DNA from: Alphaproteobacteria bacterium
GTDB lineage: Bacteria; Pseudomonadota; Alphaproteobacteria; M2410
Assembly: GCA_030614785.1 (NCBI GenBank)
Contig: JAUWTJ010000008.1
Span: 1-64,000 of the forward strand
Direction of reading: 5' to 3'
Length of the DNA: 64,000 nucleotides
The notes beneath the pieces are model-generated. The model was not told the origin of the DNA and ran no database searches. It was given only the letters and a program-made list of their open reading frames with translations. This document shows positions 55,808 to 60,812 of this stretch, in pieces. Position 1 is the first letter of the stretch, and each line of letters starts with the position of its first letter. The position numbers and the translations under genes are program-made.

Positions 55808-55871
55808 GTTGCGCGGCCAGGGTTTTTGCGTAACCTTGGGCTCAGGTTTCGCGTTTGAAGCCTGACATATA

Positions 55872-56027
55872 GAATCTTCGGGGTAGGGTGAAAGTCCCAA
55901 CCGGCGGTATTTCGGGGTTTTGCATTGCAGAATTTTCCGAAGAGCCCGCGACTCCCTCGTTACTTTTCGAGGGACTGAACCGGTGAGACGCCGGTGCCGA
56001 CGGTACAGTCCGGATGGGAGAAGGTTC
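55872..56027 (+). promoter_or_regulatory. FMN riboswitch (RFN element)
   Basis: The strand matches the conserved RFN core: GGGTGAAAGTCCCAACCGG, AGCCCGCGA, CCGGTGAGACGCCGGTG, and CGACGGTACAGTCCGGATGG. P1 is a clean 8 bp helix, GAATCTTC (55872-55879) with GAAGGTTC (56020-56027), with one G-U pair. A variable arm with hairpin CTCCCTCG-TTACTTTT-CGAGGGA lies between the conserved blocks. Such RNAs bind FMN and usually turn off riboflavin synthesis or transport genes. Here it precedes a TonB-dependent receptor. Confidence 0.95.
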
Positions 56028-56135
56028 AGGCGATCTCGACTTCTTTTAAAGAAGAGGGCGAGGGTTCGCGGCGATTTTGGCGTGCCTGGCACTCCGAATT
56101 CGTCTGCGTTGATGCGCCTTTTCTCCCACCGACAG

Positions 56136-56160
56136 CCCCGATTTTGATCGGGGTTTTTTT
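56136..56160 (+). terminator. Riboswitch-associated intrinsic terminator
   Basis: CCCCGAT (56136-56142) pairs with ATCGGGG (56147-56153), followed by seven T. It lies 109 nt after P1 and 85 nt before the receptor start, so it is a plausible off-state expression platform. The 3' part of the aptamer (TGGGAGAA, 56015-56022) is complementary to TTCTCCCA (56121-56128) just before the hairpin, an alternative pairing that would compete with P1. Confidence 0.88.
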
Positions 56161-56244
56161 GTGCTTGTAACACTGCGTTGCACATCAATCCCGAAAACGA
56201 GAACTGCCCGACAAAGGGCGGCGGACTAGAAGGATATCGGGATT

Positions 56245-58665
56245 GTGTTGAAGAGATTATTGTTATCAGTGTCGGCGCTTGTTGCGCTTGGGATTTCGGC
56301 GGGCTTTGCTACTGACGCCCTGGCGCAAGATGAGGCAGTCAAAAGTATCGACGAGATTATCGTGACGGGTGATCCGCTGAAGCTGATCGAAAAACAGTCG
56401 AGCGATACGGTCTTCGGGCTGGCCAAGCCCTATCTGGAGACGCCGCGTTCGGTCAGCGTTGTGTCCGATGCGACCATTGATCGCTACTCCATCGAGACGG
56501 TCAACGATCTCATCACCACAACGCCGGGGACGTTCACCGGCAGTTTCTTTGGCGTGCCGGGCAGTCCGACCATCCGTGGCGGGCGGGCCGATACGTTCTT
56601 TAAAGGTTTCAAGCGGGTTGAAAATCCCGGCACCTTCCCGATGCCGATTGGTGCGTCGGAGCGGATCGAAGTGGTGCGCGGGCCAACGCCTGTCAACTAT
56701 GGCGCAGGTCGGATCGGCGGACTGCTCAACTTTGTGCCCCATACGGAGAAAACCGCGCGGCGCTCGCAAGGGGAGGGCGTGAACGGGTCTCTCACCGCGA
56801 CCTACGGATCCTACGACAAGCGCATTGTCTCAGGCGACTTCGGCGCACCTTTTGAGCTCAGTGGCCGCGACGCGGGGATTTATGTCTACGCGGAATATGA
56901 AAACTCCGGGAGCTTTTACCGCGGCATTGAGCCGGAACGCACGCTGGTTCAGGCGACATGGGAGCAGGAACTTGGCGACAATACGCGCCTTGAAGCCGGC
57001 GGTATGAGTTATTCCTCCAGCGGCTATCTCCAGACCCTGGGATGGAACCGCGTGACGCAGGATCTCATTGACACAGGCACCTATATCACCGGACAGGATA
57101 CCGATCTGGTGGACACCAACGGTGACGGGCGGCTGCAGCCGGGCGAAGTGGATGCGGTTGTCGGTACCACCTGGGGCGCGACTAACATTCGTCAGTTCAT
57201 CGACTTTGGTGTTTCTCTCAACCCGGCGTTTCAGCTCGATACCGGGGTCGGCACGACGCAGCTTGACCGGCGCACGGTCTTTGTCTCAAGCCGCGATATT
57301 GCCGATGCGGAGACGCAGACCGCATGGGCCGATCTTGAACATGACCTTTCGTTTGGCACGCTGCGCCTCGAGGGCTTTTATGATGGGATGGATGCGCAGC
57401 TCTATCAAAGCTATGGCTATGCGGCCGAATATATCGCCGATGTCTATGAGCTTCGGGCCAGCCTGACGGGGGAGGGGGATTTCGGCTCGGACCTGAGCGT
57501 TAACGCAATCGCGGGGGTGAGTTACCGAAACTATGACAACGAGACGCGCCAGACGTTCCTGTCGGGCTATCTTGTTACTGACCGGCGCGATCTTTCGGTC
57601 GGGTCGACGGCGAACGATATTTTTGATGATCCGTTCTCACAGGAAGCCGGAACAATTGGTTGGGACACGGATCTTACATCCAGCTGGACCGACACTGCGC
57701 TCTTTCTGATTTCAGACTGGTCGTTCCGTGATCAATTCGATCTCCTGGTTGGTCTGCGCTATGATCTTTATGATGTCGAGACAGTGGATACAGGCGCAAC
57801 GATCTTTGGTGCGGCGCGAGGCTCCGGCGATACGGATGACTTTTCCTTTGAGACGGCACTGACGTGGCGAACCGGCAAAGGCATCGCGCCTTATGTCATG
57901 TATGCGGAAAACTCCACGCTGGAAACCAATGATGCGGGCGGCATTGCGGTTGCCCGGATCGTGCAGGGAAATTTTCTGGCGGAATCCTCGCTGCAGGAAG
58001 TCGGGCTCAAGTTCGACGCTCTCTCGGGTAGATTGATCGGGTCCGGCGCGCTGTTCCGGCAGGAGCGCACGCGGGCCGATCCCTTTGGCCATCTGGACGC
58101 CGAAGAGGCCGAGGGTTTTGAGCTTGAAGTCAAGGCGCTGCTCTCCGACGACTGGTCCTTTACCGGCGCCGCCACCATCCAGCAGACCCGCATCGGTGCG
58201 CCGGGTGACTGTGGCAGCAACAACGGCGAATATGTCGTTATTACACCGGCGCGAGCCGGGTTCTCCGAGGTTGATGCCTACGGCGGGATCATATCGGCGT
58301 TGAATGCAAGCTGTCTGACGGAACTGCAAAAGGGTTATGAACGCAACACCTTGCCGGAACAGGTCTATTCGGGCTTCTTTACCTATACGTCGCAGGAAAC
58401 CGGTTACGGCGCCTTCGGCTATACGTTTGGCGGGACCTGGGTTTCGGAAACCGGCGGCAAGACGGCGGGGTCGCACCGCCTGCCGAGCTATTTCATGGGC
58501 CGGCTGGCCTTCTTCTGGGAGCGGGGCACTCTGGCGGTCAATGCCACGGTGACCAATGTTCTTGATGAAGAGTATTTTGTCCCGGTCCAGAATGTCTTTG
58601 AAGAGGTAGGCGTTCTACCCGCCAAAGGCCGTGAGTTCAAATTATCCGTGACGCAGCGGTTTTAG
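56245..58665 (+). CDS. TonB-dependent outer-membrane receptor under FMN riboswitch control
   Basis: An 806-residue TonB-dependent receptor. It has a signal peptide (KRLLLSVSALVALGISAGFATDALA) and a TonB-box-like start (DEIIVTGDPL). The plug (about residues 60-165) carries YSIETVNDLITTTPGTF, GVPGSPTIRGGRADTFFKGFKR and GASERIEVVRGPTPVNYGAGRIGGLLNFVPHT. The long beta-barrel ends in the aromatic terminus VTQRF. The plug is siderophore-receptor-like, but the gene lies directly behind an FMN riboswitch and before an MFS gene, which suggests flavins as the substrate. The GTG start 56245 has AAGGA about 11 bases upstream. Confidence 0.92.
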   Translation: MLKRLLLSVSALVALGISAGFATDALAQDEAVKSIDEIIVTGDPLKLIEKQSSDTVFGLAKPYLETPRSVSVVSDATIDRYSIETVNDLITTTPGTFTGSFFGVPGSPTIRGGRADTFFKGFKRVENPGTFPMPIGASERIEVVRGPTPVNYGAGRIGGLLNFVPHTEKTARRSQGEGVNGSLTATYGSYDKRIVSGDFGAPFELSGRDAGIYVYAEYENSGSFYRGIEPERTLVQATWEQELGDNTRLEAGGMSYSSSGYLQTLGWNRVTQDLIDTGTYITGQDTDLVDTNGDGRLQPGEVDAVVGTTWGATNIRQFIDFGVSLNPAFQLDTGVGTTQLDRRTVFVSSRDIADAETQTAWADLEHDLSFGTLRLEGFYDGMDAQLYQSYGYAAEYIADVYELRASLTGEGDFGSDLSVNAIAGVSYRNYDNETRQTFLSGYLVTDRRDLSVGSTANDIFDDPFSQEAGTIGWDTDLTSSWTDTALFLISDWSFRDQFDLLVGLRYDLYDVETVDTGATIFGAARGSGDTDDFSFETALTWRTGKGIAPYVMYAENSTLETNDAGGIAVARIVQGNFLAESSLQEVGLKFDALSGRLIGSGALFRQERTRADPFGHLDAEEAEGFELEVKALLSDDWSFTGAATIQQTRIGAPGDCGSNNGEYVVITPARAGFSEVDAYGGIISALNASCLTELQKGYERNTLPEQVYSGFFTYTSQETGYGAFGYTFGGTWVSETGGKTAGSHRLPSYFMGRLAFFWERGTLAVNATVTNVLDEEYFVPVQNVFEEVGVLPAKGREFKLSVTQRF

Positions 58666-58674
58666 GGAGCCTGA

Positions 58675-59922
58675 ATGTCAGTCGTCTCATCACCTTTGAG
58701 ATTTTATCTCATCTTTGCAGCGGTTGCCGCGAGCTTTTTCTTTGTCGTGGCCATGACCTTTGCTTCGCTCGGGGTGGTGTTGCCGCATATGATCGGCGAG
58801 TTCGGCTGGACCTGGGCCGAGGCGGGGCTCGGCTTTACCCTGCTGGCGCTTTCGACCGGCGTCTCGTCGATTCTGCCGGCGCTGACGATCAAGCTGATCG
58901 GGCCGCGGGGCACCTATGCCCTCGGAGCCATCGTCATGTCGCTGGGTTTCGGTCTTCTGGCCATGACCTGGGGGCTGACCTCGTTTCTCGCCGCGACAGT
59001 CATTTTGGGCGCGGGCTTTGCGCTGCTTGCCAATGTCCCGGGGGTGACGGTGCTCAGCGAATGGGCTGAGGAGGACAAAAGATCCATGGCCATTGGTGCC
59101 TATCTGACCATCGGCGGTCTGGGCGGTGTTGCCGGGCCTCTCCTGGCGGTGTATTTCCTGGGCGATGATGGCGACTGGCGCAGCTTCTGGAAATTTGGCG
59201 TTCTGGCCATGGCGGCACTTGGCATTTTTGCGGCGAGTGTCGTGGCACACCGGGCGGATCGCTATCAAGCGTTTGATCACGACAAAGGCGCTGGCGAGGG
59301 CAGCCCAAAATCGCCCTCGACACTGAAGACCCTGCGTGAGGCAATGCTGACACCGCAGTTCGCCGTGATTATACTGGCCCTGACACTGATCTATTTCTGT
59401 GGTCTGACGGTAAGTTCCTTCCTGCCGATCCATCTCACCGGCGAGGGCCATACGGCCAGCTTCGCAGCGGCGACGCTGAGCATTCTTGCTGCAGCCAATG
59501 CAGCGTCGCGGGCGCTCGGCGGGATCGTCGCGCGGAAAATAAGAACGCGCTATTTGCTCATATCCGGTCTGCTGGCTGAAGCCCTCGCCATGGTGCTGCT
59601 GGCAACCGTCCAGAGCGAGGGGATGGTCATCGTCTTTGCCATTCTGCACGGCTATGCCTACGGCATGGTGCTGTTTGCCTCGACCCTCGTGCAGCTTGAA
59701 TATTTCGGCCACGAGAAAAGCGCCGCCATGCTTGGCCTGATGAACCTTGCGGCAACCTCGGCCATGATCGGGCCGGTCGTCACCGGCGCGGTCGGCGACC
59801 GCTTCGGCAGCTTTGCGCCGGTCTTTTGGGTATACGGGATCGCTGCGCTGCTTTGCGCAGTACTCGCCATGATGATGCATAATCCGGAAAAGGTCGTACA
59901 GAAACAGGTTGCCAGCGAGTAG
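58675..59922 (+). CDS. MFS transporter downstream of the FMN-controlled receptor
   Basis: A 415-residue, 12-helix major facilitator. Helices include FYLIFAAVAASFFFVVAMTFASLGVVLPHMIG, the loop after helix 2 carries LIGPRGTYALGAIV, and the final part is typical (LGLMNLAATSAMIGPVVTGAVGDRFGSFAPVFWVYGIAALLCAVLAMMM). The start has GGGAG nine bases upstream and only 9 bp separate it from the receptor stop, so they share one transcript. If the operon imports flavins, this would be the inner-membrane step; RfnT, an MFS protein predicted from FMN riboswitches in alphaproteobacteria, is a possible relative, but this is not shown. Confidence 0.88.
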   Translation: MSVVSSPLRFYLIFAAVAASFFFVVAMTFASLGVVLPHMIGEFGWTWAEAGLGFTLLALSTGVSSILPALTIKLIGPRGTYALGAIVMSLGFGLLAMTWGLTSFLAATVILGAGFALLANVPGVTVLSEWAEEDKRSMAIGAYLTIGGLGGVAGPLLAVYFLGDDGDWRSFWKFGVLAMAALGIFAASVVAHRADRYQAFDHDKGAGEGSPKSPSTLKTLREAMLTPQFAVIILALTLIYFCGLTVSSFLPIHLTGEGHTASFAAATLSILAAANAASRALGGIVARKIRTRYLLISGLLAEALAMVLLATVQSEGMVIVFAILHGYAYGMVLFASTLVQLEYFGHEKSAAMLGLMNLAATSAMIGPVVTGAVGDRFGSFAPVFWVYGIAALLCAVLAMMMHNPEKVVQKQVASE

Positions 59923-60077
59923 TTCGCACGCGTCATTTTTTTCATAACTGGCAAGTTAGGCCCGCAAAAGGCGGATTTACGCAATCGCCTTGCAATTACA
60001 TCTTGAGATACGTGCAGCGTAGCGGCAGAATCAACGCACACGTTGGTGTTATTCAAACAATTCTCAAGGAGGCTGAA

Positions 60078-60812
60078 ATGGCCCGTATCTTCTACCTGCT
60101 CTATGGTCTGGTTGGCTACATGGCTGCCGTTGGTGCTCTTGTTTATCTCATACTCTTTATCGCCGGTTTTTATGTTCCCAAGACAATCAATTCTCCGGCG
60201 CTGGTGGACCTCGGTCCGGCCTGGCTCATCAATACTCTTTTGATCGTGATCTGGAGTCTGCAACATTCTGTGATGGCCAGGCCAGGTTTCAAGGCGACCT
60301 GGACGAAGTTTGTTCCTGAACCCGTTGAGCGGGCGACCTATTGCGTCGCTACTGCGCTGGTGACCTGGATTCTGGTCTACTATTGGCAACCGATGCCGAA
60401 TGTCATCTGGGATGTCAGTGGATCAACGTTGGGAACGCTCCTGCTGGCTGTCTATCTCCTCGGCTGGGTCGTGGTGTTGGCTTCGTCCTTCATGATCAAC
60501 CACTTCCATCTCTTCGGATTGCAGCAGGCGTTTTCCGGGGCCCGCGATGGAACGGCAGGGGAGCACAAGTTTGTAACACCGCTGCTCTACAAGATCGTCA
60601 GGCACCCCATTCAGCTCGGCGTGCTGATTTCCCTGTGGGCTGCACCAACACTGACGGAGGGACGCCTGCTCCTGGCGGTCGTCTTCACGATCTATATCTA
60701 TGTTGGCCTGCGCTATGAGGAAAAAGACCTGATCGAATACTTTGGCGATGAATATCGCGCCTACAAGACGAAGGTGTCAAAGATCATTCCGTTTGGCCCA
60801 AAGGGCAAGTGA
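60078..60812 (+). CDS. mddA: Methanethiol S-methyltransferase (MddA)-like protein
   Basis: A 244-residue membrane methyltransferase of the NnrU/isoprenylcysteine methyltransferase-related family. The segment SLQHSVMARPGFKATWTKFVPEPVERATYC, the helix LVTWILVYYWQPMPNVIWDV, INHFHLFGLQQAFS, the C-terminal VRHPIQLGVLISLWAAPTLTEG, and YVGLRYEEKDLIEYFGDEYRAYKTKV match the MddA type, which methylates methanethiol with SAM to dimethyl sulfide. The start ATG 60078 has AAGGAGG six bases upstream. The name rests on these motifs, not on any test. Confidence 0.85.
   Translation: MARIFYLLYGLVGYMAAVGALVYLILFIAGFYVPKTINSPALVDLGPAWLINTLLIVIWSLQHSVMARPGFKATWTKFVPEPVERATYCVATALVTWILVYYWQPMPNVIWDVSGSTLGTLLLAVYLLGWVVVLASSFMINHFHLFGLQQAFSGARDGTAGEHKFVTPLLYKIVRHPIQLGVLISLWAAPTLTEGRLLLAVVFTIYIYVGLRYEEKDLIEYFGDEYRAYKTKVSKIIPFGPKGK

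Follow-up and report, generated by a model that had tools for sequence, protein, structure and literature searches.

The passage of flavins across the Gram-negative outer membrane is usually ascribed to porins. For vitamin B12 a dedicated outer-membrane receptor is known: BtuB is TonB-dependent, stands under a cobalamin riboswitch and has an ABC transporter as its inner partner. The TonB-dependent transporter (TBDT) PqqU, for which we know of no FMN riboswitch, imports the free aromatic redox cofactor PQQ; this cargo is comparable in type, but is not a flavin. In Bacteroides, a thiamin (TPP) riboswitch precedes the TBDT OMthi (BT2390) together with the inner-membrane transporter PnuT (PMC5613172). 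A survey of 842 FMN riboswitches placed them before biosynthesis genes, inner-membrane importers and only a few oddities, and found them almost exclusively with riboflavin synthesis and transport (PMC4418817); an earlier note on the DNA analysed here likewise held that synthesis and inner-membrane import of flavins are what they normally control. The transport genes under FMN riboswitches encode RibN, RibU, RibM, ImpX, RibXY and RibZ; RibZ is an MFS protein and none of them is an outer-membrane receptor (PMC4418817). Neither TonB nor the outer membrane is mentioned in that survey, and its table of genes preceded by FMN riboswitches (RFN elements) contains no TBDT. No TonB-dependent flavin receptor was found in the open-access full-text literature (subscription papers lay mostly outside the search), in agreement with the earlier note, which knew of none that had been characterised.

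The window, by which we mean the whole 64,000-nucleotide stretch that was analysed (positions 1 to 64,000 of contig JAUWTJ010000008.1, from an alphaproteobacterium), carries a full FMN aptamer followed by a terminator, a TBDT gene and an MFS gene (Table 1). Its components are ordinary, and riboswitch-controlled vitamin TBDTs are already known for B12 and thiamin; the combination is unreported and is evolutionarily conserved. It differs from the OMthi system in its riboswitch (FMN), its lineage (Alphaproteobacteria) and its inner-membrane partner (MFS). The same order of elements had been read by eye in the earlier note, and each of them was recovered here with coordinates at most 2 bases away.

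Table 1. Features of the FMN riboswitch, receptor and transporter locus in the window
Feature	Positions	Strand	Basis
FMN riboswitch aptamer (RFN element, RF00050), full length	55870-56029	+	cmscan, 110 bits
Expression-platform region	56030-56133	+	ViennaRNA folding, prediction
Intrinsic terminator (9-pair stem, 4-base loop, T-run)	56134-56160	+	Sequence, shuffle test
TonB-dependent outer-membrane receptor, 806 aa, GTG start; candidate flavin receptor	56245-58665	+	Pfam, trees, fold
MFS inner-membrane transporter, 415 aa; candidate flavin permease	58675-59922	+	Pfam MFS_1, 145.7 bits

The Infernal search with the Rfam model that the earlier note had proposed was run on the window with cmscan. 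The RF00050 match was full length and scored 110 bits against a gathering cut-off of 66.2 bits (E 1e-24), and the nucleotides conserved in the core of this family were retained. No other FMN riboswitch was found in the assembly (3.86 Mb). When nine aptamers (that of the window and eight others) were aligned, compensatory changes were seen at 10 of the 31 predicted pairs. The terminator consists of AGCCCCGATTTTGATCGGGGTT followed by the T-run. With a loose scan the terminator does not stand out (1 hit, against 1.1 by chance). Under a strict definition (7 or more perfect pairs, 5 of them G-C, then T6) it does, as none of 5000 dinucleotide shuffles contained such a structure. Between aptamer and terminator, CCTTTTCTCCCACC (about 56117-56131) is predicted to be able to pair with GGATGGGAGAAGG in the 3' strand of the aptamer (about 56012-56024) as an alternative to helix P1, as judged from the MFE fold of the leader and a fold with P1 forced (ViennaRNA). 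A role of this helix as antiterminator was rejected, because it does not overlap the terminator, which is kept in both folds. In several relatives (see below), the start region is predicted to be covered by a hairpin, which replaces a terminator or occurs in addition to one; when relatives were compared, the accessibility of this region changed in inconsistent directions. We infer that binding of FMN to the leader switches expression off.

The receptor contains the Pfam domains Plug and TonB_dep_Rec_b-barrel, and a signal peptide followed by a TonB-box-like motif (IDEIIVTG, near residue 36) was read by eye. Its predicted fold is a plug-barrel (pTM 0.84), and the protein has the features by which TBDTs are defined (Plug and 22-strand barrel, signal peptide, TonB box). 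Its sequence matches that of BtuB weakly (TIGR01779, 25.5 bits against a cut-off of 599.7), and it is 14% identical to PqqU (PDB 9c4o). The MFS gene begins 9 bp after the receptor gene. Its product is closest in sequence to an L-lactate transporter. Membership of the RfnT/CalT group, defined by MxxxM in TM7 and HxxxM in TM8 (PMC6362234), was considered and rejected: HxxxM was found in none of seven MFS proteins (that of the window and those of the six related loci described below), and the sole MxxxM of the window protein is at residue 352. RfnT itself, an MFS protein, was initially put forward as an importer of riboflavin and was later reported to import copper (PMC6362234).

Homologues of the receptor were searched in 385 alphaproteobacterial genomes (9 carriers at E 1e-60) and, with a profile, in about 85,000 GTDB species genomes, from which 80 loci were kept. 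A search for the triplet in other genomes, also suggested in the earlier note, yielded six more cases: the six closest receptor homologues (L057-L061 and L073, 55-57% identity), from Parvularculaceae and relatives, all have the order aptamer, TBDT, MFS. In five of the six the aptamer lies directly upstream of the receptor gene (88.6-105.7 bits) and is the sole RFN of its genome; in L057 only its 3' end is on the contig. An MFS homologue (43-47% identity) lies directly downstream on the same strand in all six. No aptamer was found at any examined receptor 51% or less identical to that of the window (regular expression at all loci, Infernal at a subset), and no receptor homologue was found in the window's own family at E 1e-60. 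The placement of a cofactor riboswitch immediately before a TBDT gene is thus conserved across seven genomes. The seven receptors are monophyletic in a tree of 85 (SH-aLRT 99), with a single change in RFN control along the tree, a number as low as this in none of 500 shuffles. The seven MFS proteins likewise form one clade in their own tree. Since these were quick trees and the window sequences sit on long branches (0.58 and 1.13), their exact position is less sure than the grouping.

The triplet appears to travel or persist as a unit, because its flanks differ: most relatives have an agmatine-deiminase-like gene upstream and argS downstream, and the window has a FetB-like gene (UPF0014) upstream and mddA downstream. 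The latter (60003-60812, same strand, directly after the MFS gene; 273.5 bits against a cut-off of 270) encodes MddA, a methanethiol S-methyltransferase that makes dimethyl sulfide, and is not part of the triplet at other loci.

The genomes of the six relatives were searched for riboflavin biosynthesis. Neither lumazine synthase (RibH, PF00885) nor riboflavin synthase (PF00677) was found in any of them, and flavokinase (PF01687) was found in all, so that the genomes are readable and their hosts should still be able to convert riboflavin to FMN. With these two genes missing and flavokinase kept, the six hosts look like riboflavin auxotrophs; one of them (L058) is a named isolate, Marinicaulis flavus SY-3-19. 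RibH was absent from 80 of 378 alphaproteobacterial genomes overall, but the 20 of these that were listed are all of 2.4 Mb or less, unlike the six triplet hosts (3.2-4.9 Mb). The seventh host, the window organism, carries ribD, ribE, ribH and nusB on a different contig, and no riboswitch accompanies them. It is probably a prototroph that adds flavin uptake, which would then be a supplement, given that ribD, ribE and ribH are present. Three other genomes of its family have one RFN each, located before a gene for an EamA/DMT transporter (two genomes) or for RibH (one), and RFN in this family appears to mark flavin-supply genes elsewhere and the TBDT-MFS pair in the window.

The association extends beyond the riboswitch. 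We refer to the RFN receptor clade and its sister as clade I. RibH was missing in 17 of 23 hosts of clade I receptors and in 0 of 21 hosts tested outside it (Fisher p 1.6e-7), counts that are not phylogenetically independent (6 state changes on the receptor tree). The association spans Parvularculaceae, Erythrobacter and gammaproteobacterial MAGs. Where an MFS gene lies within 350 bp of a clade I receptor, 11 of 12 hosts lack RibH, the exception being the window organism. Some absences may be assembly gaps, because several RibH-less hosts of receptors without RFN are MAGs, one of which (L062) also lacks flavokinase, and because the host of L067 retains riboflavin synthase. At five loci (L062, L064, L068, L076 and L084) a clade I receptor gene adjoins an MFS gene, no FMN riboswitch was detected and the host lacks RibH; these are perhaps constitutive or otherwise regulated. 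The only two cysteines of the window receptor (residues 656 and 690) are shared by nearly all clade I receptors and are lacking in those of a further group, clade II; they possibly form a disulfide in an outer loop.

Taken as one FMN-regulated transport operon, the locus would work as follows. The receptor would bind scarce external flavin and pass it to the periplasm, energised by TonB; the MFS protein would then take it through the inner membrane into the cytoplasm, where flavokinase/FAD synthetase would trap it as FMN or FAD. Plentiful FMN would bind the leader RNA and stop expression, through the terminator in the window or the start-region hairpin in several relatives. FMN-repressed, TonB-dependent uptake of riboflavin or another flavin across two membranes is the reading that we prefer; that the cargo is a flavin and that it is imported we regard as very likely. 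The two-membrane flavin route predicted in the earlier note thus gains support, short of proof, from the strong aptamer, the recurring triplets and the loss of riboflavin biosynthesis in six of the seven hosts. The apparent auxotrophy is the strongest new evidence, since it would support a flavin substrate independently. Riboflavin is most likely the flavin carried, and the window triplet is probably the first case of flavin import driven by TonB.

It is unlikely that the receptor imports instead a flavin-like compound, such as lumichrome or a deazaflavin (e.g. FO), and is regulated by FMN because this compound spares or competes with flavins. Two observations on related receptors point in that direction. 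A paralogue that is 46% identical to the window TBDT (L051, 1-5934, in genome G204) adjoins cofC, cofD, a fused npdG-cofE gene and a gene for an F420-type oxidoreductase, and may mark a locus for uptake of a deazaflavin (FO). Clade II receptors are encoded in operons together with RutA-like and RutB-like enzymes, for which a pyrimidinedione ring would be a possible target. Lumichrome and FO are, however, no substitute for the riboflavin, FMN or FAD that auxotrophs require, and no RutA- or RutB-like gene lies beside the RFN-controlled receptors. The species that carries L051 also lacks RibH (tested as L078).

The RutA/RutB-like genes belong to an uncharacterised conserved operon of Caulobacter, Phenylobacterium and Parvibaculum (L085, L088, L098, L100, L110, L112, L118-L124, L129, L131, L132 and L135). 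It comprises genes for a TBDT, an MFS protein, a RutA-like monooxygenase, a RutB-like hydrolase, an M20-like hydrolase and a flavin reductase, mostly with a TauD dioxygenase, and looks like a pathway that breaks down a pyrimidine-ring compound after TonB-dependent import. A link to riboflavin lyase was tried and rejected: the clade II LLM monooxygenases are nearest to RutA (205-211 bits, under the RutA cut-off), not to the riboflavin lyase 5w48 (59-64 bits). Riboflavin catabolism was dropped as a reading of the window because no LLM monooxygenase lies beside the RFN receptors.

Still less probable is a siderophore receptor whose FMN riboswitch ties iron uptake to flavin status, flavins being reductants of iron and the two metabolisms being linked. 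The closest solved folds are those of siderophore-type TBDTs (TM-scores of 0.6-0.7 to FoxA, FptA and FhuA, in a comparison that included BtuB, 1nqe), but the receptor scored 99.4 bits against the 223.5-bit cut-off of the siderophore-receptor model TIGR01783. The FetB-like gene upstream in the window would fit a role in iron uptake and was not seen at other RFN loci. In Vibrio cholerae, riboflavin lowers tonB1 and iron-uptake transcripts (PMC5816637); the loss of riboflavin genes in the hosts would nevertheless be left unexplained. The earlier note had looked to homologues consistently beside siderophore genes as a sign against a flavin cargo; no conspicuous siderophore genes were seen near about 85 homologues, and those without RFN adjoin an MFS gene, RutA/RutB-like genes and genes for other N-heterocycle enzymes. 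That the MFS protein exports a flavin or a toxic flavin analogue, with the receptor unrelated or a recycling component, is hardly credible: the direction of an MFS protein cannot be read from sequence and the window protein has distant similarity to efflux proteins, but it would be physiologically odd to shut off an exporter when FMN is plentiful, and flavin export is unexpected in riboflavin auxotrophs.

The preferred reading, flavin import, may reach beyond the seven triplets. Clade I as a whole might consist of general TonB-dependent flavin receptors that feed auxotrophic Alphaproteobacteria and some Gammaproteobacteria on the vitamin B2 of others, with sister branches importing related compounds of the isoalloxazine or deazaflavin type (lumichrome, or FO for F420) for use or degradation; we put this forward tentatively, as somewhat less than an even chance. 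For the flavin route itself, the window locus offers a concrete candidate pair of receptor and permease. If true, a dedicated TonB route would add flavins to B12 and thiamin as the missing member of the set. It would also account for the survival of auxotrophs where riboflavin is scarce, and would allow cross-feeding of vitamin B2 to be predicted more readily from genomes.
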